From a virus: 30,598 bases of DNA. The notes under the pieces are model-generated. The model searched no databases. It saw only the letters and a program-made list of their open reading frames with translations, and had not been told where the DNA came from. The DNA lies in the IMG/VR virus record IMGVR_UViG_3300031876_000239, positions 1-30,598 of that record, one strand, 5' to 3'. The translations under genes were made by a program, and so were the position numbers. This document shows, one piece after another, positions 3,676 to 27,970 of this stretch (the first letter of the stretch is position 1; every line of letters starts with the position of its first letter).

Positions 3676-5136
3676 TCAACTTTCACCAAAGCGACCACCC
3701 CCATTTATCCGAGACCAAAACAAATAAACTTTCGACTGCGCCAAAAAAGCAAGCCTCTTCAAAGCAGCGGCCAAACCTTCCTCATCCAACCCTCTAACCT
3801 TCTCCACAAAATCCCTCTGGCTCGGATACACCCTTCCAGAACCCACAAGCCTTTTCCGCACAGAACCCTCCTTCCGCGACAGCTCCTCAAGAACCTCCAC
3901 CACCCTCCCTTTTCCAACAAGCTTAATCTTGCACAAGTTTTGACTCACACTCCCCAACATCACAGGATCAAAACCCAACCCCCGCAACAACTCAATAGCA
4001 CCCAACACATCCTCACTCGGCTTACTCTCCACCACCTTTCGCATACCAGCCTTCTCAAAAAAAGGATTATACCTCGCCATAACAGCCAACGTCTCAACAC
4101 ATGGCGTTCCAGCCAACGGCAAAGTTTCCTTAACAAGCTTTACACCCAGACCCGTTGACCTATACTTCGGATGCACAATAACCCTCGTTATCGTACTCAC
4201 CTCCCTCTGCAGACGTTCGAAATCACCCTTCCAAACCCTACTCCTACCAACCATAAAAGGCGGCGGACAACCATACACAATCACACCACAAACCTCATCT
4301 TTACGCATCAACCTGAAAATCTTACGCGGCGGCGAACACCTACTTCCCCTATAATGAAAAACACTAAGCCTCTTATAATCCGCAAAAACCCCTTCCTCAA
4401 CCCGCACATCCCTTACGAGACTACACTCCTCAGCCAAAACATTCGCAAAATAATTCACAATCACCTCCCTCCCAAAACGCTTATGAACATGCACACTAGG
4501 CCTAAAATCCTCAAAAAGATCCACATGAGTCGTAGCCGCAATCACAGCCTTTCCATCCCGCCTCGCAACCTTCTGAACATTAAAAGCCACAATCTTAGCC
4601 GTATCACGATCAAGCACAGAACAAAACTCATCCATAACCCACCACTGCCTACCAGACTCCATCAACTTGGCTAAACAGTAACGATATTTCTGTCCATCGC
4701 TCAGCTCGTTGTACCTTCTGAGAAACAGAAATGCATCATTTAGGCCCACTTTCGTTAATAGTTCAAGGGCTTTGTTGAACGTTTTGCCAATGGTGTCGAT
4801 TATCGATTTGTCTTCATCTACGCGCATTTCCATGCTGTCTAAGGCTTCTCGAGCTAGATCTTGCTTTATGGCTTTTAAAAGGACGCTTTTGCCTGAGCCT
4901 GAGTCGCCGGTTATGAGGATTATGTCTGTTGGTGCGATTTTAAGTTCGACGTTGTCGTATAAGATGAATTTTTGGGTTTGATCTATGCCTAAGCCGAAGG
5001 CTTCTGCGACGTTTTTTGTCCGTGGCGTTATGGTTGTCGTTGTTTCATAGGCTATGTTAAAGGTGAATTTGCCTGTTTTGCGGTTGTATGTTCTTGCAAG
5101 TTTTGTGATTTTGAAGTATTCGTGTCTGCGCGTCAT
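3676..5136 (-). CDS. ABC-type ATPase fused to GNAT acetyltransferase (COG2401 type)
   Basis: A 486-aa soluble ATPase-acetyltransferase fusion. The ATPase half has Walker A G-D-S-G-S-G-K-S (77-84), an ABC signature L-S-D-G-Q (145-149), Walker B W-W-V-M-D-E-F (165-171, with catalytic Glu170) and a switch His at about 204. The GNAT half (about 240-375) has V-I-V-H-P-K-Y-R-S-T-G-L-G, the acetyl-CoA pyrophosphate-binding turn, and F-F-E-K-A-G-M. No transmembrane segment is present, so it is not a transporter. The ATG overlaps the TerL stop by four bases (ATGA), so the two are translationally coupled. The reading frame is open far upstream of this ATG, but that part runs antisense to TerL and was discarded. 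The biochemical role is unknown; the context suggests DNA packaging or genome modification. Strand composition changes sharply near codon 150. Confidence 0.88.
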   Translation of the reverse strand: MTRRHEYFKITKLARTYNRKTGKFTFNIAYETTTTITPRTKNVAEAFGLGIDQTQKFILYDNVELKIAPTDIILITGDSGSGKSVLLKAIKQDLAREALDSMEMRVDEDKSIIDTIGKTFNKALELLTKVGLNDAFLFLRRYNELSDGQKYRYCLAKLMESGRQWWVMDEFCSVLDRDTAKIVAFNVQKVARRDGKAVIAATTHVDLFEDFRPSVHVHKRFGREVIVNYFANVLAEECSLVRDVRVEEGVFADYKRLSVFHYRGSRCSPPRKIFRLMRKDEVCGVIVYGCPPPFMVGRSRVWKGDFERLQREVSTITRVIVHPKYRSTGLGVKLVKETLPLAGTPCVETLAVMARYNPFFEKAGMRKVVESKPSEDVLGAIELLRGLGFDPVMLGSVSQNLCKIKLVGKGRVVEVLEELSRKEGSVRKRLVGSGRVYPSQRDFVEKVRGLDEEGLAAALKRLAFLAQSKVYLFWSRINGGGRFGES

Positions 5137-6509
5137 CTTGTCACGCCCGTTGTTTGGTGCTTTATGAGCTTTTTTCGAAGCTGTTGAAGCTTTGTTTTGC
5201 CTTTGCTTATTCTTGCGATGATCCAGAGGTTTGGTGTTGGTTCTGTTTTTGCTGCTGTTACGGCAAGCGCGAGTGCCCAGAGCATGTCGTCTTGAGCGTT
5301 TGGTGGGTGGGTGAATTGGATGTGGCCTGTTTTTGTGTATGTATATTGTTGTTGGTTTATTTGTTGGATTAGGCGTCTGTTGTATGGTATTGCGAGTTTT
5401 TGTTGTTCCATTGTTATTTTTAGGTTTGTGAGGAGTTGTTCTTTTGTTTGTGTTGTGAATTTTATGCCTTCTGCGTTGGTTATGTTTTGGTTTTGGATTT
5501 CTTCTAGTATGGGTTCGCCGATTCCTGTTTGGTCGATTAGGGTTTTTTGGAGGTTGAATTTTGTGTGTGCTCTTTTTAGGTGTCCGATTACTTCTGTGTA
5601 GGGTGTTTGGGTTGGGAATTCGTGGATGTAGACGAGTTTTGTTGTGTTTTCTTCTGTGTTTACGATTGCTATTGCGGTTTGGTCTTGTAGTTTTGCGAGG
5701 TCGATGCCTGCGTAGTGTTTGCCTTTTTGGATTTGTTGTTCTAGGTTTGTGTATGGTTCTAGTGTGAGTTTTTGGGCGAGTTCTATGCTTTTTCGGATTA
5801 GGTCTTGTGGGAAGTAGGTGTTTGTGTCTTCTGTGAATTCTGCTTCGTATTCGCGTTTGTAGGCTTCTTTTGTCATGTTTTGTTGCATTTCTTGTAGGAA
5901 TTGTTGTGGGATTAGTGGGTTTTCGTTTGATTTTGTTTTGTGGGTGCTGTATTGTGGGTTTGTGTAGGCTTTGTGGAAGAAGTGGTTTTGTCCCCAGGGT
6001 GTGCTTAGGAATATTGCTGTTCCTTTTGTTGTGCTTAGCATTGGGAATATTATTTCTGTTATGACGTTTTCTGGTATGAATGCTGCTTCGTCGCAGATTG
6101 TTAGGTTTGCTGTGTATCCGCGTAGTAGGTGTTCGCTGCATGGTAGTGCTATTATTTGGCTGTTGTTTGTGAGTTGGATTATTGTGCGTGTTTTGCGTGT
6201 TATGCTTTTTGTGAGGAGTGGGTTTTGGTGTGTTAGTGTGAGGATTTTGTCGAACATTATCATGCTTTGTCTGAGTGAGGGTGTGATTATGAGGGTTGTT
6301 GTGTTTGGGTTTGTGTATGCGTAGTGTATTGCTTTTGCGGCTATTGTTGTTGTTTTTCCTGTTTGTCTTCCCATGCATGCGATTATGCGGTTTGATTTGT
6401 CTGTGAGGAGTTTTTCTTGGTATGTGAAGGGTTTGAAGTTTAGGAGGAGTTGTGCGAATAGTGTTGGGTTTTCTTTGAGTTGTGTTAGTGCGCTTGTGTG
6501 GTTCTGCAT
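5133..6509 (-). CDS. terL: Terminase large subunit (TerL)
   Basis: A 458-aa packaging motor that pumps DNA through the portal with its N-terminal ATPase and cuts concatemers with its C-terminal RNase H-fold nuclease. Visible motifs: Walker A G-R-Q-T-G-K-T (47-53), Walker B L-T-I-C-D-E-A (136-142), the coupling motif S-T-P-W-G (169-173), and nuclease acidic residues in A-G-I-D-L-A (Asp270), L-I-D-Q-T-G-I-G-E (Asp326) and A-Q-D-D-M-L-W-A (Asp407/408). I chose the ATG at 6509, which overlaps terS by 25 nt, because upstream in-frame sequence is a shadow of terS. The sense strand is very rich in A and C, which shifts the protein toward Thr, Gln, Asn and Lys. The gene lies at the opposite end of the cluster from portal and capsid. 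Confidence 0.95.
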   Translation of the reverse strand: MQNHTSALTQLKENPTLFAQLLLNFKPFTYQEKLLTDKSNRIIACMGRQTGKTTTIAAKAIHYAYTNPNTTTLIITPSLRQSMIMFDKILTLTHQNPLLTKSITRKTRTIIQLTNNSQIIALPCSEHLLRGYTANLTICDEAAFIPENVITEIIFPMLSTTKGTAIFLSTPWGQNHFFHKAYTNPQYSTHKTKSNENPLIPQQFLQEMQQNMTKEAYKREYEAEFTEDTNTYFPQDLIRKSIELAQKLTLEPYTNLEQQIQKGKHYAGIDLAKLQDQTAIAIVNTEENTTKLVYIHEFPTQTPYTEVIGHLKRAHTKFNLQKTLIDQTGIGEPILEEIQNQNITNAEGIKFTTQTKEQLLTNLKITMEQQKLAIPYNRRLIQQINQQQYTYTKTGHIQFTHPPNAQDDMLWALALAVTAAKTEPTPNLWIIARISKGKTKLQQLRKKLIKHQTTGVTR

Positions 6510-6811
6510 TTTTTGAGCCTTTTTGCGAGTGTTTTTGCTTGGGTTTGGATTTGGCTTAGGAGTTTTGCTAGGTCTTGGGTTTGGTCTGGTTGTCCGTGGA
6601 GTTTGAGGAGCATTGATAATGTGCGTATGTGGCTTGCGAGGTTTTGGTAGTAGAAGGCTTTTTGTTTTTCGTAGCGGGCTTTTTCGGCGAGGTTTTGGAG
6701 TTTGTCTATGATTTTCCATTCGGTTTCGATTAGTTCTTTAGCGGTTCGGGTTTTGCTCTCTGCTTGGTCTAGACCCCCCTTATATATAGATTGAACTTGT
6801 GGTTCTGTCAT
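6485..6811 (-). CDS. Probable terminase small subunit
   Basis: A 108-aa, mostly helical, charged protein directly upstream of TerL and overlapping it by 25 nt. This is the usual place and size of a TerS DNA-recognition subunit. No known TerS fold is recognisable by eye, so the call rests on context. Residues ~20-90 form long helices suited to ring oligomerisation. I chose the ATG at 6811, five bases after the preceding stop; a longer reading frame upstream overlaps the membrane-protein gene. Codons 3-17 (P-Q-V-Q-S-I-Y-K-G-G-L-D-Q-A) are encoded by the 41-bp sequence that recurs in the 3390-3609 repeats. Packaging sites lie within terS in several headful phages. Confidence 0.6.
   Translation of the reverse strand: MTEPQVQSIYKGGLDQAESKTRTAKELIETEWKIIDKLQNLAEKARYEKQKAFYYQNLASHIRTLSMLLKLHGQPDQTQDLAKLLSQIQTQAKTLAKRLKKCRTTQAH
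6764..6804 (-). repeat. Inverted copy of the 79-bp repeat core, inside terS
   Basis: This 41-nt stretch on the minus strand matches 3550-3590 on the plus strand at 40 of 41 positions, and weaker similarity continues for about 20 nt more. The two copies are 3.2 kb apart, inverted, and enclose the TerL and ABC-GNAT genes. The core contains CTATATATAAGGGGGG. It is the best candidate in the window for a TerS recognition (pac-like) element. Confidence 0.6.
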
Positions 6812-15856: not shown

Positions 15857-16094
15857 CGCTTCGTGTTACCTCCTTCAGAGTGCCGTCAGTATTCCAAGAG
15901 AAAGTCAGTGTGAACAGAAGAGTCTCACCATCGTAGGCTTCGAGCCTAGCTAAGGTTTTCTCAGAATTCCACATGAAACCAAGTTTCGTTATTCTTCTGC
16001 CACTCGGTGGAGATGCAATCTGCGACAAAGCACTGTGAATGGCTTTGAAGGCTTCTTCATATCGTCCGTAAGGAACAGTCCATGAGTCACTCAT
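15849..16094 (-). CDS. Small tail-region protein (81 aa)
   Basis: An 81-aa protein that starts at an ATG sharing bases with the hub stop codon (TGATG). A Trp/Tyr-containing N-terminus precedes a helix (Y-E-E-A-F-K-A-I-H-S-A-L-S-Q-I), then three beta-strands ending F-T-L-T-F-S-W-N-T-D-G-T-L-K-E-V. No known family. Its place just after the hub suggests a baseplate or fibre-attachment role. Confidence 0.55.
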   Translation of the reverse strand: MSDSWTVPYGRYEEAFKAIHSALSQIASPPSGRRITKLGFMWNSEKTLARLEAYDGETLLFTLTFSWNTDGTLKEVTRSDA

Positions 16095-17683
16095 CAAATC
16101 ACCGTCGCAACTTTGTGTCTGCTGAGATGGTCTGTTTTACTTCGCAGAGCGTATAGGTAATCAGCCAGAAGAGGCGTTTCCCTTCCCAGTTCCAAAGTTA
16201 TCTCAAGAGTTTGCGTGCTAGCATGTACGTGGTATTCTACGCTTAGAATGCGGAAGTCGGCGTCCACATTCTCGTTTGGAAGAACTACGTGAATCTTGCC
16301 TCCAGGCAGAATTGGAGTATTTCCGTAGTCGATTATTGTGCTTCGCACTGCTATGTGCTCGGCAGGGTTTTTAAGATGATTGAGAATCGCCTTCGCTCTG
16401 AGCGCACACTCATTATCTGTGTAAAGTTCCTCATCAACATCAACAAGCTCCCTTAATCCATAATCTGCTTGGCTCGCGCTGTCTTCTTCCGTTGCGCTGT
16501 AGCGTCTTCCACCGAAAAATAAACCGTCAATCCAGAAGTTTCCCGTGCCAGCTACGCTGAAATTACAGTCAAATCTTATTTTCTTTATGTTTGCCCAATC
16601 GAAACCACCCTGAACATTCCATGCATCTGCATTTGAGCTGCCAACTTTCAACTGTCTTTGGAACCATTCGTCAGCTCCTATAGTCAACACGTAAGCTGCG
16701 CTTTTGTCTGCAGTATCGTAGAGAGTCACTTGGACATTCCCATTGAAACTGCTTTCAAGCCTAAACCAAAAGCTCAAAACAGAATAAAGATTACAGTCGA
16801 CTTCCTTGCCACTGTTCAACGTTAATTGGCATGAAGCGTAATAAAGATTTTGAGCATACGTTTTGATGCTTCCACCGCCCTTCAGTTTTGTTGTTGTGTC
16901 GAGGCTTATTTCGCCTGAAACTGCACTCCAAGAACCGTCTGCGGGTATTAGGCTTTCAGTCCAAGCGTCCTTGTCTGATGGGACAGACTTGTCGGCAGCG
17001 CCATAAACTGTGACTTTGTTTCTCACGTTGTGAATGTCCTTACTGTATTCGCTGGCTTCAATTTTCTCGCTGAGAATCAAAGACGAAGTCTTGCTGTTCC
17101 GTGGGAAAAATTCAAATTTCCCATCAGGTGCAACACGAAAATCGAAGGCTATCACGCCAGCTTTGTCTGCGCTTCCAGCGACAAATTTCAAGATTTCGAA
17201 GACAGGCGTATTCTCGTATTCCAGTTGGGTGTAAGTCGTGTCCGTGTTTTCTATAAGCTCTGTTGAATCGCGAACATGGCTGAGACGCACGAAGTAGTCA
17301 ATCAAGTCTTTAACGATTTCTTCGCCTTTCCTGTTTTCGTAGGCTTCGGTCACAACCCTTCGGAAAAGGCGTTCGCCCCAACATCGTCCACTAACACGAA
17401 CATAGTGTTCAACTGGTGTCGACTCGTATTTGACGTTTTCAACATGGCACGTTATGATCTGCGGAACACTTGAGCCTCTTCCAATGTCTATGTGCCCGTC
17501 CATGCCAACAGCAATCGGATAAGACCCACCTTGGCTGTACTTCTCATCCCAATTTTGCAGAAGGCACTCAAAACTGCTCACTTCATTTGTGCAGCCCAAA
17601 TGCACATGCAAATCTACAACATCACCTTGAGGTGGAGCCACAGAGCCAAAAGCAATAGAAACTTTTGGAACTTCAACGCTCAC
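16094..17683 (-). CDS. Baseplate hub protein with inserted jelly-roll (CBM-like) domain
   Basis: A 529-aa protein of the gp27/XkdQ/gpD-type hub class that closes the tail tube and anchors the fibres. Residues 1-230 (V-D-L-H-V-H-L-G, C-H-V-E-N-V, V-R-V-S-G-R-C-W-G) and 400-529 (A-L-R-A-K-A-I-L, G-N-T-P-I-L-P-G-G-K-I-H-V-V, F-R-I-L-S-V-E-Y) fit the split hub fold. Between them, ~240-395 looks like a galactose-binding/CBM jelly roll: S-I-K-T-Y-A, L-S-F-W-F-R-L, V-Q-V-T-L-Y-D-T-A-D, F-W-I-D-G-L-F-F-G-G. The start is GTG, overlapping the previous stop by one base. The insertion suggests a glycan-binding surface on the baseplate. Confidence 0.78.
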   Translation of the reverse strand: MSVEVPKVSIAFGSVAPPQGDVVDLHVHLGCTNEVSSFECLLQNWDEKYSQGGSYPIAVGMDGHIDIGRGSSVPQIITCHVENVKYESTPVEHYVRVSGRCWGERLFRRVVTEAYENRKGEEIVKDLIDYFVRLSHVRDSTELIENTDTTYTQLEYENTPVFEILKFVAGSADKAGVIAFDFRVAPDGKFEFFPRNSKTSSLILSEKIEASEYSKDIHNVRNKVTVYGAADKSVPSDKDAWTESLIPADGSWSAVSGEISLDTTTKLKGGGSIKTYAQNLYYASCQLTLNSGKEVDCNLYSVLSFWFRLESSFNGNVQVTLYDTADKSAAYVLTIGADEWFQRQLKVGSSNADAWNVQGGFDWANIKKIRFDCNFSVAGTGNFWIDGLFFGGRRYSATEEDSASQADYGLRELVDVDEELYTDNECALRAKAILNHLKNPAEHIAVRSTIIDYGNTPILPGGKIHVVLPNENVDADFRILSVEYHVHASTQTLEITLELGRETPLLADYLYALRSKTDHLSRHKVATVI

Positions 17684-18228
17684 TATTCAACACCCCGCCT
17701 ATACATTGCTTCCTCCTCGCCACTCCGCCGAACACTACGACCATAAGTGGGTATCTCAGAAGCCACCTCATTGAAGCCTCTAACACTTGCGGTTGCCGCA
17801 TTCATTTGACTGGCAAAGTGCCACATCGCAGCAGCAGCCGCAATTATCACGCCTATACCTACGCCTGTCAGAGCAAGAAAAGTCGCATAACTGATGTTCA
17901 ATGCATTTTGAGCTGCAGCTGCAATCCAACAAGCAGCTGAATAAGCTTTCTGAGCCACGGCAACCCCCCAGCTTGTCCGCATAAACATGCCCATTACCGA
18001 GAGGATCATCATGGCTGAGTTGAACACTCGGGCTTGCTGATCGTTCAGTAAGCCAAATTGATGAGCTATGTGTCCAATAGCAGTGCCAGTGGCTCCCAAA
18101 CCAGCTATGGCTGCACCGACACTCTTAATTCGCACCGACAAGGCTTCAGCGTCGGACTGGATTCTTGCAAACTCATGGCTGGCACGATTAACAGCCCTTA
18201 TGGTGACCGCGATCTCACGGAAAGCCAC
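17683..18228 (-). CDS. Very short tape measure protein
   Basis: A 181-aa protein with typical tape measure features: an N-terminal helix containing V-N-R-A-S-H-E-F-A-R-I, an Ala/Gly-rich region, a F-G-L-L-N-D-Q-Q-A-R-V-F segment, and hydrophobic helices (about 68-86, 98-112 and 116-136) that would enter the host membrane at ejection. Its length is a small fraction of the 600-1500 aa usual in siphoviruses. At about 0.15 nm per residue it predicts a tail near 27 nm. The start is GTG, overlapping the previous stop codon by one base. Alternative: only the C-terminal module of a split gene, but the neighbours leave no room. Confidence 0.68.
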   Translation of the reverse strand: MAFREIAVTIRAVNRASHEFARIQSDAEALSVRIKSVGAAIAGLGATGTAIGHIAHQFGLLNDQQARVFNSAMMILSVMGMFMRTSWGVAVAQKAYSAACWIAAAAQNALNISYATFLALTGVGIGVIIAAAAAMWHFASQMNAATASVRGFNEVASEIPTYGRSVRRSGEEEAMYRRGVE

Positions 18229-18596
18229 TATGATCCAGCCTCCGCCTTAGCCATGTCAAGAGCCTCCAGTATTGTGTTCTCAAGTGTGGGCAAATACTTC
18301 TGGATTGCTGGGTAAAGGTAGGGGCGTGCCCTCACGTAGCGAGTGCCCATCTCAACAAACAAGGCATAAGCAGCTTCAGCACCAACCTCTGCAACCCACT
18401 CGCTAATTCTGGCGTAAATTGTACTCCTCAAGTGTCCTGTTCGCACAGGAACGATTTGCTTCGCCAAAGATTCAACATCTGCAGCCCAGCTTGCCAACTG
18501 TTGATGAACTTGTCTTTGCATGCTAGAATCGAGGTGCTCCATTGAAGCCTTGAACTCTTCAACGCCCTCAACATCACATTTTATCTCGATCGCCAC
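18228..18596 (-). CDS. HK97 gp10-like head-tail/tail completion protein
   Basis: A 122-aa protein with the family core V-P-V-R-T-G-H-L-R-S-T-I (50-61), a V-G-A-E-A-A-Y-A-L-F-V-E-M-G-T-R-Y (71-87) strand and R-A-R-P-Y-L-Y-P-A-I (89-98). HK97 gp10-type proteins complete the neck or tail end. Its usual place is before the tail tube, but here it sits after the chaperone and directly before the tape measure. The start is GTG; the -1 frameshift extension of the upstream gene ends 16 nt inside it. Confidence 0.85.
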   Translation of the reverse strand: MAIEIKCDVEGVEEFKASMEHLDSSMQRQVHQQLASWAADVESLAKQIVPVRTGHLRSTIYARISEWVAEVGAEAAYALFVEMGTRYVRARPYLYPAIQKYLPTLENTILEALDMAKAEAGS

Positions 18597-19127: not shown

Positions 19128-19988
19128 CTAGCTAATCGTAACTGGACCCTTGGCTACAAAAGATGCCTTTAGCGCGATCAAATCTTCGATGCGTACTGGT
19201 GTAGACACATTTTCCCATTTACATTCAGTGAAAACGGCTTTGTTGGAGCCTCCGAGACCAAACTCTAAGTCAAAAGCGGTGTCGTTGACAACATCATCGA
19301 ATTCCTCTTTGCTCTCAAACTCGAAAGTCAGCTCGCCTGTTAGGCTTCTGTGGCGGTATGGCAAATACTTTAGAAGATGACCGTTTGTCGAGCGGATGAC
19401 AGGCACTTGTTTCAGGTTGTTTTCTATTGTGAATTTCCAGTCTGACACTCGGTCGAGAACGGTCGTTGCCTTTTTAACATAGCTTTCATTGAACACAACT
19501 GCTCCAGCATATTCTGCGTAGGTTGCTCCGGTGATCTTTGCCGTTCCCACTGTCATGTTTTGCCCAGTGAGTTCAGCATTCGCCTTAACAACATCTTCTA
19601 TGCTACATTCAACAGTTACTTTCTGGAATCTGCAGCCTGTGAAAAGAAGCGAAACAATGTCTGTGGCTGAAGCAAAGACTCCTTTGTAGTATAAGGCTTG
19701 GATGCTTAGAGACTTGTTCAGTTCAGCCTTTGCATATTGGAGAAAATTGATCGGCGCATCGCTTGGAAGCGGATAGGAAACTTTCAGGCTGGCATCTCTT
19801 AAGCCTTTCTTAACAGCTTGCAGGTCTATGTTGCCCAAGCCTCGAAGCCTAATGTTACTTGGGTTTACGGATGGTTCTATGCTTTCGGCTGGGATGCCAA
19901 GCATCGAGGGGTTTGTTGGAGTTGTGCCGTAAGCGGCTTCTTCCACGTAGTATATGCGGCTTTCGTGTGCACCATAGGTTTCAACCAT
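19128..19988 (-). CDS. Major tail (tube) protein
   Basis: A 286-aa protein, assigned by order (just before the chaperone and tape measure) and sequence. The N-terminus E-S-R-I-Y-Y-V-E-E-A-A-Y-G-T-T-P is typical of tail tube proteins. Alternating beta-strands follow (S-L-K-V-S-Y-P-L, K-V-T-V-E-C-S-I-E-D, W-K-F-T-I-E-N-N, G-E-L-T-F-E-F-E), as in the tube beta-sandwich. It forms hexameric rings stacked to the length set by the tape measure. A strong RBS (AAAGGAG) precedes the ATG. No contractile sheath gene was found, so a siphovirus-type tail is likely. Confidence 0.82.
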   Translation of the reverse strand: MVETYGAHESRIYYVEEAAYGTTPTNPSMLGIPAESIEPSVNPSNIRLRGLGNIDLQAVKKGLRDASLKVSYPLPSDAPINFLQYAKAELNKSLSIQALYYKGVFASATDIVSLLFTGCRFQKVTVECSIEDVVKANAELTGQNMTVGTAKITGATYAEYAGAVVFNESYVKKATTVLDRVSDWKFTIENNLKQVPVIRSTNGHLLKYLPYRHRSLTGELTFEFESKEEFDDVVNDTAFDLEFGLGGSNKAVFTECKWENVSTPVRIEDLIALKASFVAKGPVTIS

Positions 19989-20004: not shown

Positions 20005-20991
20005 TTAGAGCATTCCTCCTAAGTTTTCAAAGTACCATGATTTGAGAAAGAATTCAGTTCTAAAGATGAATGGTTTAACTCGCACTTCGTCAGCGTCTCG
20101 AAAACTTGCGATGTCAAGGTATGTTATGCCAATAACGGTGATTGTGCAACTCACGTAATCGCAGTAGAGTGTGGCTGCGGATGCTCCGTTGCTTGGATTT
20201 GTGGTTCTTGCTAGAAGCCAAACGTACCCTTCATTGTCTATGTAGTCTGGCAAGTCTGAAGCCAAAACAATCGTGATTGTCTCGTCTGCACCTGCAGTTC
20301 CAGATTGGGCGTTCTGCCAATCCTCTGCAGCATGGTTCCAGACCTTCACGGTTATTCCATTTCCAGCTGGAGCTGTGCCATAACCTTCAAAGGTTAAAAC
20401 AATTTTCTTAGCGGTTTGTTCTCGAGATTCAATTTTAAAGCAGAAAAGCGTAAGGGCATATTCCCCATCAACGGTATGGCTTTTGGAATAGCGACTTTCA
20501 TCGCTGTACCAGATCTTCTCATACTCAGCGTTTGTGAGCTCAGTCCATTCTGCGTGTCTAGGAGACAGCTCCGTTGATGCTCCAGCGTGAAACGCCTTGT
20601 GGCGGTTGTCTTCTAAGGAGCCTAAACCAGCAAAATCATATTCTGTCACGTTTGGTTTTTTACAGTTCTGCCTCACAACACGGTTTATCTCTTCAACGAT
20701 TTTGTTGCGCAGGAGTCTGCCTGAATCTGATGTTTCAGGTCTGTCGGTCGCCCAGACATTCAAACGCAAGGAGCCTAAACGCTTGCGGACTGTGCCAGAC
20801 ATTTCAATTTTCGTGTCTCTGCTTTCTACTAGGCCTACAGTAACTTGTCCATCATAAGTATTGAACAGTTCGCGGTTGCACCATTCTCTGCTTATGCAGA
20901 TTTTCGCAGTTGCACCGTCTTCTTTGATAACTTGCATTTTGTTGCTGAGAAGTCTAACAACTGTTGTCACGGGATCCTCAAGTTCACTCAT
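20005..20991 (-). CDS. Tail terminator/neck protein with jelly-roll insertion
   Basis: A 328-aa protein. Residues 1-130 resemble neck/tail-terminator proteins: D-P-V-T-T-V-V-R-L-L, K-I-C-I-S-R-E-W, T-V-G-L-V-E-S, V-R-K-R-L-G-S-L-R-L-N-V-W-A-T-D, then a helix R-N-K-I-V-E-E-I-N-R-V-V. Residues ~150-290 form a beta-sandwich (I-V-L-T-F-E-G-Y-G-T-A-P, V-K-V-W-N-H, Y-V-W-L-L-A-R-T-T) like carbohydrate-binding domains. The end (I-A-S-F-R-D-A-D-E-V, I-F-R-T-E-F) may rejoin the terminator fold. I chose the ATG at 20991, whose ATGA overlaps the previous stop; an upstream in-frame Met lies inside that gene. A plain terminator is ~130 aa, so the insertion is a clear addition. Confidence 0.65.
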   Translation of the reverse strand: MSELEDPVTTVVRLLSNKMQVIKEDGATAKICISREWCNRELFNTYDGQVTVGLVESRDTKIEMSGTVRKRLGSLRLNVWATDRPETSDSGRLLRNKIVEEINRVVRQNCKKPNVTEYDFAGLGSLEDNRHKAFHAGASTELSPRHAEWTELTNAEYEKIWYSDESRYSKSHTVDGEYALTLFCFKIESREQTAKKIVLTFEGYGTAPAGNGITVKVWNHAAEDWQNAQSGTAGADETITIVLASDLPDYIDNEGYVWLLARTTNPSNGASAATLYCDYVSCTITVIGITYLDIASFRDADEVRVKPFIFRTEFFLKSWYFENLGGML

Positions 20992-22379
20992 GTTCCCGTA
21001 AGCCTCCTGCACGAAGCCTTGAAGTAGGCTGTTTCGCCTTTGAAATCGAAGGCTTGAACGCCCAAAACCTCGTAATCTTGTCCTTTCCGTCTGATTCTGT
21101 CGTGCTGTCTCAAAGGAGTGAACGTGTAGACTGTGAGATAATCGTTTATCACATATCCAGGCTCCAACAAAACCTCATCCACGCGGACAGGAGAAACTTT
21201 GGCTAGAATGTCAATAGCCTCGCCATAAGTCACCTGGTCTCCTGTTTCGCGCACAGAGAAAAGAGTTACATTCTCGCCGAATTTACGCAAAATTTGCATT
21301 GTGCGAGTCAAGGGTACTTCGTAGTTGAGGTATAACAGACCGAGCCAGCAGACCGAAGCCATCGCCTGTTTATTTTCCACATAACTATAGTCGGCGTGTT
21401 TGATGCCCCAGAACATGAACTCGCTCTGGTGCTTGTCAATAATCTTCATACTGAACGTGAAGTTTGGCTTATCATGGTTTTTGCGAATTTTCCACAGAAT
21501 TCCAGCTGTAACTACATCATAGTAGTCGCAGGCTGCAGAACGTGAAATTACATCTATGTAGCCTGCCCAACAAATTGCAGGGTTGTATGCTGGGTATTGC
21601 GCAGATGCTCCGATGTTGTTTATGAAGTTGTAGGCTTTTTGAACTGTCAGACTCCAGCCTTCGTAATCGTATAGACCGACCAAAGCATAAGCGAATGGGT
21701 CGTCGTACACTTCATTTTCGGTCAAGCCGACACGATGCCAGCTTGAATCTGCAGGGTCGTAATGGAGCCAAATATTCTCAAAGCCTTCGCGAAGGAAACC
21801 AACAGCATTGGACATCATAGATTCGTACAAGCTTGCGTTTGCAGCATCGTACGTTTGAGCAAGCATTTTCAAGCCGACAACCCCGTACAAGCATTCAATG
21901 TCCATTTGAAGAAGCCACGCATCATCGATTGTGACGGCTCTTGCGAAGCCTCCGTAAGTCTGCTCGTCCTGCATTGTTTTCAGAAATGTCGCTCCTGCGA
22001 GTCTGGCGGAGTTCAGATAATCTGTATCATTGGTCAACTCGTAGGCTTTCAGAAGAGCGGGTATAACACGGCACGCGTCTACACTATAGTAGTATGTGCT
22101 TGTTTCGTTGCTCTTGAATGCGCCGTAGGCTTCTTTGGCGTTATCTGTGCACTGTTGAGTTAGAATCCAGTCTGCAAGCGACACAATCTTGCTGTAAATG
22201 GCATTTTTCCGATCTTCAAACTGTTTAGAAGAGTGGGCTTCATAAAGGAAGTCCATAGCGAAGGCTGCTGCGAAAGCAACTTTACCAAAAGTCGAATCAG
22301 GAGTGTTTGGCGGAATAACGTAAGCATAGGGCGCATAATCCATCACAAACTGATAATAGGCTTCCGGTACAGAGCCCAA
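20988..22379 (-). CDS. (alpha/alpha)-toroid enzyme-like domain fused to head closure protein
   Basis: A 463-aa fusion. Residues 1-355 look like an (alpha/alpha) toroid of the glycoside hydrolase / glucuronyl-epimerase type: repeated paired helices and loops (V-S-L-A-D-W-I-L-T-Q-Q, Y-Y-Y-S-V-D-A-C-R-V-I-P-A-L-L-K-A-Y, T-Y-G-G-F-A-R-A, G-L-K-M-L-A-Q-T-Y). Residues 356-463 resemble a phage head-tail joining (head closure) protein: I-L-R-K-F-G-E-N-V-T-L, then Q-H-D-R-I-R-R-K-G-Q-D-Y-E-V-L-G-V. The start is TTG with GGAG seven bases before it, just after the connector stop. It sits where a ~110-aa head closure gene is expected. The substrate and activity of the toroid are unknown. I do not know of such a fusion in described neck proteins. 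Confidence 0.68.
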   Translation of the reverse strand: MGSVPEAYYQFVMDYAPYAYVIPPNTPDSTFGKVAFAAAFAMDFLYEAHSSKQFEDRKNAIYSKIVSLADWILTQQCTDNAKEAYGAFKSNETSTYYYSVDACRVIPALLKAYELTNDTDYLNSARLAGATFLKTMQDEQTYGGFARAVTIDDAWLLQMDIECLYGVVGLKMLAQTYDAANASLYESMMSNAVGFLREGFENIWLHYDPADSSWHRVGLTENEVYDDPFAYALVGLYDYEGWSLTVQKAYNFINNIGASAQYPAYNPAICWAGYIDVISRSAACDYYDVVTAGILWKIRKNHDKPNFTFSMKIIDKHQSEFMFWGIKHADYSYVENKQAMASVCWLGLLYLNYEVPLTRTMQILRKFGENVTLFSVRETGDQVTYGEAIDILAKVSPVRVDEVLLEPGYVINDYLTVYTFTPLRQHDRIRRKGQDYEVLGVQAFDFKGETAYFKASCRRLTGT

Positions 22380-22381
22380 GG

Positions 22382-22735
22382 CTACACTCTCCTGACATGC
22401 GGCTGCTTCAAACCGCTCAAGATTCGGTCAAGCTCAGCTTGCAGAACCTCAAGAGGTGGAGCTTTGCCGAGCACGCTTACGTTTTGGTCTCCAATGCTGA
22501 AGTTTAAGCCAACAGCAGAGCCGCCAGTCAAATAGCAAATAGCATAAATAGCGGCCAAGACTGTGATGAACTCCTTTTCGGCATCCGTGCAGTTTTCATA
22601 TTCTACTTCCTTGCCAAGTTCAAGTTCTAAAGTGACTTCTGCACGTTTAATCATCTTCAAAATTTTCGCATCTGGAATCTCTACTGAACCAACATTTATT
22701 ACGTCGCGAACATCATCAGCAGATACGCTCGCCAA
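22382..22735 (-). CDS. Head-tail connector (gp6-like adaptor)
   Basis: A ~117-aa helical protein by the chosen TTG start at 22735 (GAGG four to five bases upstream). The helices S-A-D-D-V-R-D-V-I-N, D-A-K-I-L-K-M-I-K-R-A-E-V-T-L-E-L-E-L-G-K and E-K-E-F-I-T-V-L-A-A-I-Y-A-I-C-Y fit adaptor proteins that dock beneath the portal. The frame is open to an ATG at 22834, but that extra part is Cys-rich, unlike an adaptor, and lacks an RBS. It is followed directly by the head closure fusion. Confidence 0.65.
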   Translation of the reverse strand: MASVSADDVRDVINVGSVEIPDAKILKMIKRAEVTLELELGKEVEYENCTDAEKEFITVLAAIYAICYLTGGSAVGLNFSIGDQNVSVLGKAPPLEVLQAELDRILSGLKQPHVRRV

Positions 22736-22799
22736 ACAGCCTCGTCTCCAAGCACAAGAAGGAAAATAAGACAAATTTAAACAATTTTCACAATAAAAA

Positions 22800-22860
22800 A
22801 GGCATATTTTTGCCTGTTTAGCAGAAAATCCCATTTGAGGAAATATTTCTTAAAAATATT
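22800..22860 (-). promoter_or_regulatory. Possible internal promoter/leader before the connector-tail genes
   Basis: AT-rich DNA with a TATA-like TTTTTAAGAAAT (about 22846-22857, minus strand) and a small hairpin AGGCA/TGCCT at 22800-22815. It could give separate expression of the neck and tail genes. No gene seen in 22835-22956. Confidence 0.3.
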
Positions 22861-22956: not shown

Positions 22957-23364
22957 TCACTTGTGTTTCTTCAGGTGTTCCTCTAGAAGCTCGCGATAAC
23001 TTTCACAGACTTTGCCGCAGACTTTACAGTGGAACGATTCAACAGTGACCGAGTTTCCGTCAGGATCAACGATAGTGGCGGCTCGACCACCCCAAGGTTG
23101 ATCTTTTGGCTCAGTAACAAACGTGGCTCCCTTATCTTTCAGACTTCGATAGGCCTTGTCAACATCATCAACAAGTAGGCAAATTTCCAGCTTTGCTTTC
23201 GTTTGCAAGCCCAGAGTTGCTCCAGCTACGTCAAAGATTGCATAGTCTTGCCATTCACCCAGCTTTTCTAGTCCAAGAACATCTTGATAGAAAGACACGG
23301 ACTTTTTCAGATCTGAAACGCCGATCGTGATATGTGGTATCTTTTTGATAAGACTACTCTTCAT
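22957..23364 (-). CDS. VOC/glyoxalase-fold protein with C-terminal C2H2 zinc finger
   Basis: A 135-aa protein by the ATG at 23364 (AGGTGG upstream; a GTG at 23376 is possible). The first ~110 residues form a vicinal-oxygen-chelate domain: P-H-I-T-I-G-V-S-D-L-K-K-S-V-S-F-Y-Q-D-V-L-G-L, then G-G-R-A-A-T-I-V-D-P-D-G-N-S-V-T-V-E. The metal site looks partial (His14, Glu in V-T-V-E). The last ~23 residues are a C2H2 finger (H-C-K-V-C-G ... E-E-H-L-K-K-H). A VOC domain could bind an antibiotic or metabolite; the finger could bind DNA or protein. It sits within the virion operon between phospholipase and connector genes, so it looks like a moron. The role is unknown. Confidence 0.75.
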   Translation of the reverse strand: MKSSLIKKIPHITIGVSDLKKSVSFYQDVLGLEKLGEWQDYAIFDVAGATLGLQTKAKLEICLLVDDVDKAYRSLKDKGATFVTEPKDQPWGGRAATIVDPDGNSVTVESFHCKVCGKVCESYRELLEEHLKKHK

Positions 23365-23522
23365 CACAATTCCCACCTAATTTCACGGTTACATTAACTA
23401 CTATAAATGCTAATAGTTTTGCATTGTTGCTAAGACAAGTTATCGTCGTTGCATTATTGATTTGAAATCGAGAAAAGCCTAAATTTGAATCTACTCCGAA
23501 CCAATAAAAACATTGGTTTGAG

Positions 23523-24398
23523 TCACCATCTTTTTCTTGGAATTCTTTTCTTCGTACATAAAATGACAAAAGTAGCAACAACAATGAGAAGAGGAAGTGT
23601 CAGTATCGACGGGAACTCTGGAATTATCTCTTCCATATAGAACGTATGAAGAACGTCAGCAATCAGATTTACGGCCAAGTTGAGTGATTCTCCACACCGG
23701 TTCTTGAACGTTGGATTGTTCCAGTCATAGTTTTGACTCATCCACACGCATGTCAAGTCTCCATCATCGTCGAAGGTTGTGTCAAAAGCAAGCTTTAGAG
23801 AAGCATTGTAAGCCGAAATTGTTTCTAAAACGCCGTCAAAGCTAAGGTAGACGTTAAAATCGTCACTGTAGCTTTCCGTTCGCCTGTCCACATAGCTTTC
23901 ATAATTGCCATGAACCGAATCATCTTCGCTTCCCCAAGCTGTTTCAGAACCCATCACGTGTCCATAAACCCCCAAGTCGCTAATGTAGTGACAAACCATA
24001 CCAAGTCTCCTCACGGCGCCTATTACGTCGCCAGCCCTGAGAAGATTCGATGCGTTGATGTATTCCTCTCTCGCTCTAACTGCAGAGTCATCTTCCTGCA
24101 CCGAGCCATTAGCGAAATAGTAAACATGATGTTTATCCTTGTCGCCAACGCCGTCTGGAATAGATCCGTTGTCAGGCAGCTCAGTCCCATACAAAAAACT
24201 TGCAAGATTGTCCAGAATGCACTGTTTCTCTTCATAAGGGAGCCAGTCCAAAGCATGGTGTGCAATCCAGTCATGCGTTCCATATTTAGGGTCAAACGGC
24301 TCACTGCTAGACCCGCCGTTGCTCCATCCATAAACAGAAACCGCATAGAACCTGAAAAGAAGCAAGACTGAAACTAGAAAAACAACTTTTTTTGGCAT
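23523..24398 (-). CDS. Secreted zinc-dependent phospholipase C-like protein, membrane-anchored
   Basis: A 291-aa protein of the zinc-dependent phospholipase C / S1-P1 nuclease fold. A signal peptide ends near 24, leaving Trp25 as the mature N-terminus, which in this family is a zinc ligand. Other ligands are visible: T-H-D-W-I-A-H-H (41-48), Y-G-T-E-L-P-D (70-76), K-H-H-V-Y-Y (89-94), C-H-Y-I-S-D-L (136-142), G-H-V (146-148) and H-G-N-Y-E (163-167). The C-terminus has I-P-E-F-P-S, a TM helix and K-K-R-I-P-R-K-R, an archaeal PEF-type sorting/anchoring tail. So it would act outside the cytoplasm on the lipid head groups or nucleic acids. Beside a holin-like gene inside the virion operon, a lysis role is plausible. 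Confidence 0.75.
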   Translation of the reverse strand: MPKKVVFLVSVLLLFRFYAVSVYGWSNGGSSSEPFDPKYGTHDWIAHHALDWLPYEEKQCILDNLASFLYGTELPDNGSIPDGVGDKDKHHVYYFANGSVQEDDSAVRAREEYINASNLLRAGDVIGAVRRLGMVCHYISDLGVYGHVMGSETAWGSEDDSVHGNYESYVDRRTESYSDDFNVYLSFDGVLETISAYNASLKLAFDTTFDDDGDLTCVWMSQNYDWNNPTFKNRCGESLNLAVNLIADVLHTFYMEEIIPEFPSILTLPLLIVVATFVILCTKKRIPRKRW

Positions 24399-24845: not shown

Positions 24846-26057
24846 TTAGCGCACCTTCCCGGCGGTTTCGGGTGCTTCTTCCCATAACTCCCAGCCGAAT
24901 CTTGCAGCATTTTTGCGAAACTCGTCTTGGCGAATCAGCCCTAACTCAGCGGCTTTCAACATGTCCGCTATACTTATCTCTGGAGTTTTTGGAGTTCCCC
25001 AGTTCAGACGAGCCTGAGCCTTTTCTGGTTCAAATCCAGCTTCAGTCAAAATTACGTTGAATATTTCTCTTTCAACTTGTCGCTTGATGTAGCGCTGAAT
25101 GGGTTTGATAAGCATGTTTTGCAGGTCTAAAGCTGCTTTTGCTGAGGCTTCAGTGAAGCCAGGCGTGCTGAAAAGCCTTGGCAGAGGTGTTTCGCATCCG
25201 AGGTAAAACTGGTTTATCAGATGGTCAACATAATATTCGAATCGAGCACGCGGGTCAAGTGTTACAGGGCGTATGTCGCCTTTCCCGCTATAAAACAGCC
25301 AAGCTCCTTCTTCAGAGCGACTCTTGATGGCTCTTTCAAACTTTTGAATAGTCTCCTCATCCGCCCTCTCCAGCAAGGCCAAAACGTCAGGACCAGCATA
25401 CTTCTCAAAAATTTTCGGCATTATACGCTCTATTTTGGCCTTCATCCATGCATAGGCAGGTCGCTTATCAGATTGAAAAGTAAGCGAGTGCAAAAGAACC
25501 TGCAAAACGCCAGTTCCGAAACCCGACAAGCCTACGGAGTTTATTCGCCAGTGGATCAAGGCTTCTGGTGAAAGGGTTTCTCCGCCGTAAGTTTGCCTTA
25601 GCTTGTATCCTTCGACCCTATAAGGAATCTTTAGGCTACTCTGTATGTAGCTTTGTTCAATGAGTTCAAGGGCTTCTATGGGAAGCCTATGCAGATTTGT
25701 CAGCCTTTCAGGTGTGATTTTGAGCCAGAAATCGTTTCCGCAGGCAACTAGAACTCGTGCCATGTCGCAAAGCATCGCATCCAAGTTCACTGTTTCATTA
25801 AATTGGTCTATGATACATTTAGCTTCAGCAGCCTGCTCGTATTGCCCACTGACCGTTGTGTAGAAGCCCGTGCCTACCGCCGAAGCTGCGAGCAGATCAA
25901 CGCTCGCCTTACACGTCGGGTCTCTTTCATAAAGCTTTAACACGTCAGCCAGTGGGATGCTTGGTGTTTCATAGATTACCGTTGCTTGCGGGAAGGCAAA
26001 GCCACTTCTCCTCTTGATGAAGAAAGCTTCAGCTAGATGTTTCAAAAAGCTGTTCAA
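24846..26057 (-). CDS. Portal protein
   Basis: A 403-aa portal of the HK97/SPP1 class: dodecameric ring at the capsid vertex for DNA entry and exit. Features are D-P-T-C-K-A-S-V-D-L-L-A-A-S-A-V-G (46-62), a wing (A-L-I-H-W-R-I-N, G-T-G-V-L-Q-V-L-L-H-S-L), the stem/crown helices around I-N-Q-F-Y-L-G-C-E-T-P-L-P-R-L-F (284-300) and T-E-A-S-A-K-A-A-L-D-L-Q-N-M-L. The C-terminus R-Q-D-E-F-R-K-N-A-A-R-F-G-W is typical. It is unusual that portal lies downstream of protease and capsid. Confidence 0.88.
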   Translation of the reverse strand: MNSFLKHLAEAFFIKRRSGFAFPQATVIYETPSIPLADVLKLYERDPTCKASVDLLAASAVGTGFYTTVSGQYEQAAEAKCIIDQFNETVNLDAMLCDMARVLVACGNDFWLKITPERLTNLHRLPIEALELIEQSYIQSSLKIPYRVEGYKLRQTYGGETLSPEALIHWRINSVGLSGFGTGVLQVLLHSLTFQSDKRPAYAWMKAKIERIMPKIFEKYAGPDVLALLERADEETIQKFERAIKSRSEEGAWLFYSGKGDIRPVTLDPRARFEYYVDHLINQFYLGCETPLPRLFSTPGFTEASAKAALDLQNMLIKPIQRYIKRQVEREIFNVILTEAGFEPEKAQARLNWGTPKTPEISIADMLKAAELGLIRQDEFRKNAARFGWELWEEAPETAGKVR

Positions 26058-26579: not shown

Positions 26580-27533
26580 CTACAACGATGTGCTTATGTT
26601 AGTCATTTTGGCGACCGCTTTACTTCGTAAGATCCCTAGACCAAATCTTGTTGTTGCCCTAACTCCGAACTCACTGGTTTTTGGGTCTTCCCAGTCTTCA
26701 ACCGTTACGTCTCTTCGCAGGAGCATGACTGCCGCCACGCGGGTATCTATGGCATAGGCTGTTCCATTGGGCACTAGGGTACTAGCCATAACCTTCATGC
26801 CAAGAACGCTACCGATAATGCCGCGTTCCAAGTCGACTTGTTCTGCTGGAAGGTATTGTGCATGGATGAATTTGTCGTCGCTCAGGAGTTGATGCAACTG
26901 AATCTCGTTTACTGCAAGAACTGTAGGACGCCAGTTTTCGCCTCTAACGGCATTATGAAGCTTAAGTAATCCTGTCCAGTTAAGGGCTGCTCCTGCATTG
27001 TCAATTGGCGCTCCGCCAGCCAAATCTGCGTTTGCAATTGCTCCATACAAGTCTAATATCTTGTTTGTTTCACTTTCCCCTAGGGCTATTCCAACCTTCT
27101 CTGTCATACTATCCATAACATTCCACGTGGCGTCCTCCAAGAACTCACGTGTCCAAACTTCAGCGGCTTCTGCTATGATATTTGTGTACACATCAACTGT
27201 GCTGATTTTCTTTCCACTTAATCTTGCAAATGCACCTTCGGCATAACGGTAGGCAACAGCCTTGTCGTCAAGAGGGAATCTCTCCATAGTCTCTGTTGTT
27301 GGCCTAACTGTAATAATGTCCCTCCCTATAATCTCTGGATTGGCAGCTTCCACAAGAGTGTCATGCATATGCCCTAATGCGCCAGCCATATCGCTGAACA
27401 AGTGTTCTTTAACGCCAGCTTCACAGTAGCGCTTCAGAAATGGGTGAGCAACTGCCTTGTGTTTTAGATTTTCCATGAACTGTCCGAATTCAAGGTCCGA
27501 CCGTATAAGGCTCTCAAAAAGCTTGGGCTTCAT
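26580..27533 (-). CDS. Major capsid protein, HK97 fold
   Basis: A 317-aa major capsid protein. Order (after protease and decoration protein) and features agree: an N-terminal helical arm (K-P-K-L-F-E-S-L-I-R-S-D), an E-loop-like region (I-I-G-R-D-I-I-T-V-R-P-T-T-E), the spine helix around A-E-A-A-E-V-W-T-R-E-F-L, A-domain strands (W-R-P-T-V-L-A-V-N-E-I-Q-L-H-Q-L-L) and the C-terminal G-V-R-A-T-T-R-F-G-L-G-I-L. I chose the ATG at 27533 (GGAAGTG upstream); a GTG at 27542 overlaps the previous stop. Confidence 0.85.
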   Translation of the reverse strand: MKPKLFESLIRSDLEFGQFMENLKHKAVAHPFLKRYCEAGVKEHLFSDMAGALGHMHDTLVEAANPEIIGRDIITVRPTTETMERFPLDDKAVAYRYAEGAFARLSGKKISTVDVYTNIIAEAAEVWTREFLEDATWNVMDSMTEKVGIALGESETNKILDLYGAIANADLAGGAPIDNAGAALNWTGLLKLHNAVRGENWRPTVLAVNEIQLHQLLSDDKFIHAQYLPAEQVDLERGIIGSVLGMKVMASTLVPNGTAYAIDTRVAAVMLLRRDVTVEDWEDPKTSEFGVRATTRFGLGILRSKAVAKMTNISTSL

Positions 27534-27538
27534 GCAGA

Positions 27539-27970
27539 TCACTTCCCTACCACAATGAAAATCAGATCGTCTGTAGCTGAAGCGGATTCAAGGGCTGTTC
27601 CAAGTTTGCGATTGTAGTAGATCGCGTATGTGCCTGTGCCGCCCTCGTTTACAGCTTGGTCTGTGAGCTGAAGTATCCTGTTGTTTGAGTCTGCACCGTA
27701 GACTGCTTTCCCTCGGGTTATATTGCCCCCAGCCTTAGCTTTGACCCTTCCACGAACCAGAACTGGACATGGGTCGCCAGACGCCACGCTTTTGACGGCT
27801 ATGCCTATGCAGTCTTGGGCTGAAGTTGCGGGGCTGACCTTGTCATCTGCTGGGAGGTACACGGGGTCACCCTTTGTGATAGCTGCGCCTGCTTCAATAG
27901 TTTCGATAATGGCGTTTGGGTCGTCAGTTTCGCCTATACTCATCCAAGTTTTGCCAGTGTTATCAGCCAT
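27539..27970 (-). CDS. Capsid decoration/DUF2190-like protein
   Basis: A 143-aa beta-rich protein next to the capsid gene. T-I-E-A-G-A-A-I-T-K-G-D-P-V-Y-L, then C-I-G-I-A-V-K-S-V-A-S-G-D-P-C-P-V-L-V-R-G-R-V and I-T-R-G-K-A-V-Y-G, is the pattern of DUF2190-type proteins, which decorate capsids. ATG chosen at 27970 with GAGGAG eight bases upstream. It may stabilise the shell. Confidence 0.8.
   Translation of the reverse strand: MADNTGKTWMSIGETDDPNAIIETIEAGAAITKGDPVYLPADDKVSPATSAQDCIGIAVKSVASGDPCPVLVRGRVKAKAGGNITRGKAVYGADSNNRILQLTDQAVNEGGTGTYAIYYNRKLGTALESASATDDLIFIVVGK

Follow-up and report, generated by a model that had tools for sequence, protein, structure and literature searches.

A probable glycan-acting toroid fused to the N-terminus of the head-closure protein of a bathyarchaeial tailed virus

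The passage of archaeal tailed viruses through S-layers and surface glycans is a largely unknown field, and glycan-acting domains at the virus neck are very rarely reported. In bacteriophages, P22 gp4 acts as a lysozyme at the neck and the collar appendages formed by phi29 gp12 digest teichoic acid; according to a 2017 review, gp4 is the sole virion lysin at this site (PMC5380687, PMC9863714). In the haloarchaeal virus HFTV1, the capsid turrets carry predicted glycan-active domains; with these turrets the virus was proposed to attach to S-layer glycans and break them down, and to the authors' knowledge no carbohydrate-degrading domain had previously been predicted in a virion protein of an archaeal virus (PMC12494034). 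In SPP1, six gp16 stopper subunits lie under the adaptor ring with the N-terminus inserted in a crease of the ring (PMC9701221), and the stopper of R4C is likewise composed of six copies (PMC10276861). Among toroid enzymes, archaeal Agl32 functions in N-glycosylation and is built of one helical domain, to which AGE enzymes such as 3VW5 come closest in fold (PMC13308652).

The window analysed here, i.e. the whole stretch of 30,598 nucleotides of the IMG/VR record IMGVR_UViG_3300031876_000239, encodes a protein in which a stopper and an (alpha/alpha) toroid are joined. Like SPP1 gp16 and lambda gpFII (PHROG 161, 939), this protein has a C-terminal beta domain and its gene follows that of the adaptor and precedes that of the tail terminator; however, these stoppers are proteins of about 110-120 aa, whereas the fusion adds a preceding toroid of 356 residues. 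P22 gp4 and phi29 gp12 are comparable in that they, too, act on carbohydrates from the neck or collar of a tailed phage, but neither is fused to a head-closure domain and gp4 acts on peptidoglycan; both are proteins of another kind, with folds presumably unrelated to the toroid. The HFTV1 turret protein (gp31) shares the setting of an archaeal tailed virus and a predicted carbohydrate-active virion domain, yet this domain is polysaccharide-deacetylase-like and resides on capsid turrets rather than at the neck. Agl32, which can be likened by fold alone, is also a single toroid with the same nearest AGE folds, but constitutes a cellular N-glycan enzyme. A first-pass annotation of this DNA had held that nothing similar was known, which goes too far with respect to neck enzymes, as P22 gp4 and phi29 gp12 set the precedent, whereas the architecture of toroid plus head closure does seem undescribed and was not found in the literature searched, which covered few subscription journals. 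The contig JAAKEZ010000002.1, from which Bathyarchaeia tailed provirus 1 was published, holds one fusion locus, and the terms "head closure", "neck" and "toroid" are absent from the main text of the provirus paper (PMC11705971). The features considered are as follows.

16094..17683, minus strand: tail hub (YQBQ and Prophage_tail matches)
17683..18228, minus strand: short tape-measure-like protein, 181 aa (position; weak TMP_3 match; similar length in most relatives)
18228..18596, minus strand: HK97 gp10-like tail completion protein (PF04883, phrog_5)
19128..19988, minus strand: tail tube protein (PF18906, E=2e-22)
20005..21012, minus strand: tail terminator gene, downstream neighbour overlapping the end of the fusion gene (gene order and alignment with insert-free homologues; assigned by position and inference)
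20128..20652, minus strand: terminator insert of about 175 residues (~121-295; beta-rich by inspection, weak phrog_5793 match)
20988..22379, minus strand: fusion gene, 463 aa, TTG start (PHROG, AF2, VIA and Foldseek evidence)
20991..21311, minus strand: head-closure (Hc1 / SPP1 gp16-like) beta domain, residues 357-463 (PHROG_939; BLASTP to the bare homologue L287; BFVD folds)
21312..22379, minus strand: (alpha/alpha) toroid of glycosidase/epimerase fold, residues 1-356 (AF2; VIA Z ~23 to 3vw5, 2zzr and 1vd5; PF06662 at 97-159)
22382..22834, minus strand: head-tail adaptor gene, upstream neighbour of the fusion (synteny, 135 homologous ORFs; assigned partly by position)
22389..22392, minus strand: GGAG Shine-Dalgarno-like motif of the fusion gene (sequence; similar core in relatives)
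24846..26057, minus strand: probable portal protein (weak portal PHROGs, order, synteny)
26580..27542, minus strand: HK97-fold major capsid protein (PF05065, phrog_267)

The fusion is neither a product of chance nor a frame artefact, given that internal stops are absent from the frame in all 52 inspected relatives and that both profiles fall into one frame at 275 of 297 loci, which comprise 153 distinct sequences. The remaining loci are mostly cut at contig ends, and at one locus (L248) the fusion is split by a frame change. Full or near-full relatives occur on 56 viral contigs. The GGAG motif precedes the TTG start by 9 nt, and a Shine-Dalgarno-like core is present at this start in 74 of 79 checkable relatives, as opposed to just 10 of 123 at the internal Met340, which is frequent among relatives. 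Separate expression of the head-closure part from Met340 was therefore rejected, and the signals at the two sites indicate that toroid and head-closure domain are most likely translated as a single chain.

Residues 357-463 constitute a head-closure domain of the Hc1, SPP1 gp16-like type by profile, fold and gene position. The PHROG profile phrog_939 ("head protein") matches residues 379-463 with E=1.8e-6. In the AF2 model of the fusion, which was built from 30 relatives and reached a mean pLDDT of 76.9 and a pTM of 0.81, helices extend up to about residue 367 and are followed by strands at 369-459; moreover, most top Foldseek matches in BFVD are phage proteins of 100-155 residues, and the hits of about 110-125 aa include several whose names refer to head-tail joining, a head-tail adaptor or a closure knob, as befits a beta-barrel stopper. 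The domain junction is fixed by the bare head-closure protein of a sister virus lineage (L287), whose first residue aligns to residue 357 of the fusion (BLASTP, E=9e-21) and which itself matches phrog_161 ("head closure Hc1", E=7.6e-4) as well as phrog_939.

The genes are arranged in the order protease, decoration, capsid, portal, (cargo), adaptor, fusion, terminator, tube, g18658, gp10, tape measure and hub. An adaptor homologue weakly matches the neck protein profile phrog_5223. The insert of the terminator is absent from the 146-155 aa homologues of five relatives (L108, L109, L104, L096, L101); it is missing in some relatives that keep the toroid fusion and varies independently of the toroid. 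The insert is a possible second neck decoration. Tape-measure proteins usually account for 0.15 nm of tail length per residue, so that the 181-residue protein of the window points to a tail that is probably short, roughly 27 nm.

The helical hairpins of residues 1-356 form a toroid according to the AF2 model, Foldseek and VIA. Compared with the PDB by Foldseek and VIA, model residues 1-354 yielded Z-scores of 20-23 over ~275-330 residues to AGE, GH88, GH105 and GH76 structures, with ~23 for cellobiose 2-epimerases and GH88 and 20-22 for GH105 and GH76; the cellobiose 2-epimerase 3VW5 is the joint top match (Z 23.0, 313 residues). Several loops, among them 77-96, 257-273 and 326-333, have a pLDDT below 50, and the loops on the presumed active face were modelled with low confidence. 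A PDB sequence search with the single fusion protein gave no match, and a search for relatives among annotated phages returned chance-level matches only. Taken together, the layout that the first-pass annotation had proposed, namely a glycosidase/epimerase-like toroid in residues 1-355 and a head-closure domain in one open frame at the normal place of a head-closure gene, holds in all these respects: the boundary of 355/356 is correct within about one residue, the gene lies between those of adaptor and terminator, and the same fusion recurs among relatives. Its suggestion of a whisker is unlikely, since the toroid is globular and carries a conserved set of residues on the pocket side.

This set comprises D101, R104, W214, R216, D226, D227, W271, Y274, Y286, Y287, D288 and W324, which are invariant in 39 of 39 divergent toroids, next to the partly kept D160 (33/39), E162 (34/39) and H215 (37/39). 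Toroid enzymes have their active sites in the loops before the inner helices or in the first turns of these helices, and in the AF2 model all of the above residues occupy these same places relative to the presumed inner helices. Among the invariants, those with polar or aromatic side chains are modestly over-represented on the presumed active face (19/70 versus 8/74, p=0.018), a result to be read with caution because the split by residue type was made after all invariant positions together had shown no enrichment on this pocket face (p=0.68).

Membership in the known toroid families was considered in turn. The sole Pfam match is C5-epim_C (PF06662), which covers residues 97-159 with E=4.7e-5 and 23.4 bits against a gathering cut-off of 23.3, spans only 59 of 188 profile positions and recurs at E<=0.1 in 24 of 30 relatives. 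D-glucuronyl C5-epimerase (GLCE), for which E499, Y500, N510, Y560 and Y578 are catalytic (PMC13308652), likewise has an (alpha/alpha) helical domain; however, its E499/Y500 (human numbering) align with R147/A148 of the toroid in an hmmsearch alignment to 6hzz, which is weak (E=0.009) and not beyond doubt, and membership was rejected on the loss of this pair. In the case of the unsaturated uronyl hydrolases of GH88 and GH105 (UGL, YteR), with fold Z-scores of ~20-23, the invariant D101 falls, in the alignment, on the first Asp of the catalytic pair (equivalent to YteR D88), but the second acid of the pair (YteR D143) is not invariant, with D160 and E162 as its counterparts, and PF07470 is found at E<=0.1 in only 2 of 30 members (best E=0.0031) and stays below its cut-off; these families were rejected as well. 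The AGE family (N-acylglucosamine and cellobiose 2-epimerases), despite the joint top fold match, was rejected on account of its catalytic set, H184, E187, H243 and H374 in 3VW5 (PMC13308652), as these histidines are missing from the toroid alignments and H215 is the single conserved His. With regard to GH76 (fold Z ~20-22), which has a catalytic Asp-Asp pair, the invariant D226-D227 of the toroid are candidates for the corresponding site. Since no catalytic set of C5-epimerase, GH88/GH105 or AGE is fully kept, the toroid is filed in none of these families. The hint of a C5-epimerase in the first-pass annotation rests on a real but weak profile match and does not extend to the GLCE active site, and the known catalytic residues of GH88/GH105 and AGE are not all retained either.

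The reading preferred here, and considered rather probable, is that of a glycan-acting toroid fused N-terminally to the head-closure protein of a bathyarchaeial tailed virus, where it would form a neck collar acting on host glycans. It starts from the two domains, their junction, the gene position, the conservation of the fusion and the invariant acidic/aromatic set, all of which are observed. The head-closure part would sit beneath the adaptor ring in the manner of the six-copy stoppers of SPP1 and R4C, and as a toroid of 40 kDa on the N-terminus hardly fits the channel, about six toroids would form a collar on the outside. Their pockets may bind, and probably process, acidic sugars in the glycans of the host S-layer or envelope, and the short tail would bring the neck near the cell surface. 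A glycan-acting collar is the most economical reading, in which catalysis is a prediction. The invariant acidic/aromatic set of the 39 divergent toroids and the strong conservation of the domain speak for a role in glycan binding or turnover, as do the precedents of Agl32 and the HFTV1 turrets; conversely, the incomplete catalytic sets, the lack of enrichment of all invariants together on the presumed active face and the low confidence of the modelled loops there count against this reading, and strong conservation would equally suit a structural role. In a tentative extension, which falls somewhat short of being probable, the toroid would belong to a hitherto undescribed family of enzymes that process glycans, its active site being made up of D101/D226/D227 together with R104/R216; it would be mounted on the head-closure ring, and the neck would open the envelope after the short tail has crossed the S-layer. 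On the preferred reading, the portal-proximal ring, usually viewed as a plug, would serve as a mount for a large functional domain. Moreover, a conserved fused toroid, coming from viruses of an archaeal class that is abundant but has hardly been cultivated, offers a tangible protein that can be expressed and whose residues of interest are defined.

Alternatively, the toroid may have retained the enzyme fold yet merely bind surface glycans, as a lectin for reversible first attachment devoid of catalysis. The variation of the second GH88/105 acid, the alignment of GLCE E499/Y500 with R147/A148 and the occurrence of binding modules on some phage necks and tail tubes (PMC9863714) are consistent with this, but the invariance of D101, D226, D227, R104 and R216 and the very strong conservation would exceed what most host-binding decorations display, which renders a pure lectin rather unlikely.

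Regarding selection, the pooled dN/dS of close pairs amounts to 0.09 for the toroid and 0.08 for the head-closure domain, which signifies strong purifying selection on both. In each of 138 relatives (138/138), the toroid is more identical to the window than the head-closure domain of the same protein is; compared with the capsid protein, this is the case in 45 of 64, and compared with the tube, in 99 of 131. A purely structural collar, which reinforces the neck or helps the preassembled tail to dock and has no sugar ligand, would account for a toroid that is fixed at one place, is conserved like core virion proteins and shows no overall enrichment of invariants on the pocket face; nevertheless, the polar and aromatic invariants favour the pocket side, and the sister lineage (L282, L287, L290), which is tied to the fusion viruses via adaptor, terminator and tube, possesses a bare head-closure gene of 112-122 aa, so that a fused toroid is unneeded for neck assembly there. 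A structural collar is hence regarded as improbable.

Between head closure and terminator, the sister lineage contains two extra genes of ~106-113 aa and 382-384 aa. For the 382-aa protein, neither a Pfam, PHROG or PDB match nor sequence kinship with the fused toroid was detectable (hhalign probability 3%). This two-gene cassette (~106-aa and 382-406-aa proteins; L287:5832-7307, L282:5709-7213, L290:4428-5900) lies at the neck in the sister lineage and at the tail hub in the L395/L397 lineage (L395:586-4188), in which the hub carries the small protein as a C-terminal fusion and the protein of the 382-aa type follows; the hub was identified by BLASTP to that of the window (33% over 451 residues, E=1e-67).

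The toroid profile matches 44 of 256 bathyarchaeial genomes (GTDB; the class of the A05DMB-2 bathyarchaeon), and the A05DMB-2 bathyarchaeon genome harbours six toroid copies. Cellular sequences weakly similar to the toroid are in part CAZyme-like, two of them residing beside glycosyltransferase-like genes. In addition, a contig of a Njordarchaeum MAG encodes a standalone toroid (L072:503-1822) that is 59% identical to that of the window, stops at the same junction without a head-closure part and bears a hydrophobic, signal-peptide-like leader. In a midpoint-rooted tree, which has no support values, it groups among viral sequences, hinting at a capture from a virus by a cell, although the contig measures only 4.4 kb and may be misbinned, which makes its cellular origin uncertain. 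That the toroid is cleaved from the chain or synthesised on its own and acts off the virion as a free secreted or cytoplasmic enzyme, for which the leader of this copy could be adduced, is very improbable in view of the single frame at 275 of 297 loci, the lack of a leader peptide on the viral fusion copies and the absence of a conserved internal start signal.

Several minor observations concern other parts of these genomes. At four loci (L135, L136, L140, L150), the capsid genes have diverged far more than those of adaptor, fusion and tube, with 37-47% identity for the capsid protein and, in L135 and L150, about 30% for the portal, which suggests that the head module was exchanged. The locus L342:3259-4670 was rejected as a toroid swap; it represents a decayed provirus in which a deletion joins the first ~103 toroid residues to a C-terminal part of the tail hub. 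By inspection, the tail hub of the window contains a CBM-like insert (residues ~238-388, window 16520-16972). A 900-aa minus-strand frame at 3676-6378 overlaps the terminase gene (5133-6719), and only its C-terminal part, with an ABC ATPase and a GNAT-like domain, resembles a real gene. Within the structural cluster, positions 22957-23376 encode a protein of the glyoxalase/bleomycin-resistance fold that ends in a C2H2-like motif. Finally, a zinc-dependent phospholipase C-like protein (23523-24398; PF00882, E=7e-10; weak PEF-CTERM match) is encoded between portal and adaptor, and its homologues in L103 and L148 are much larger (~710-720 aa).
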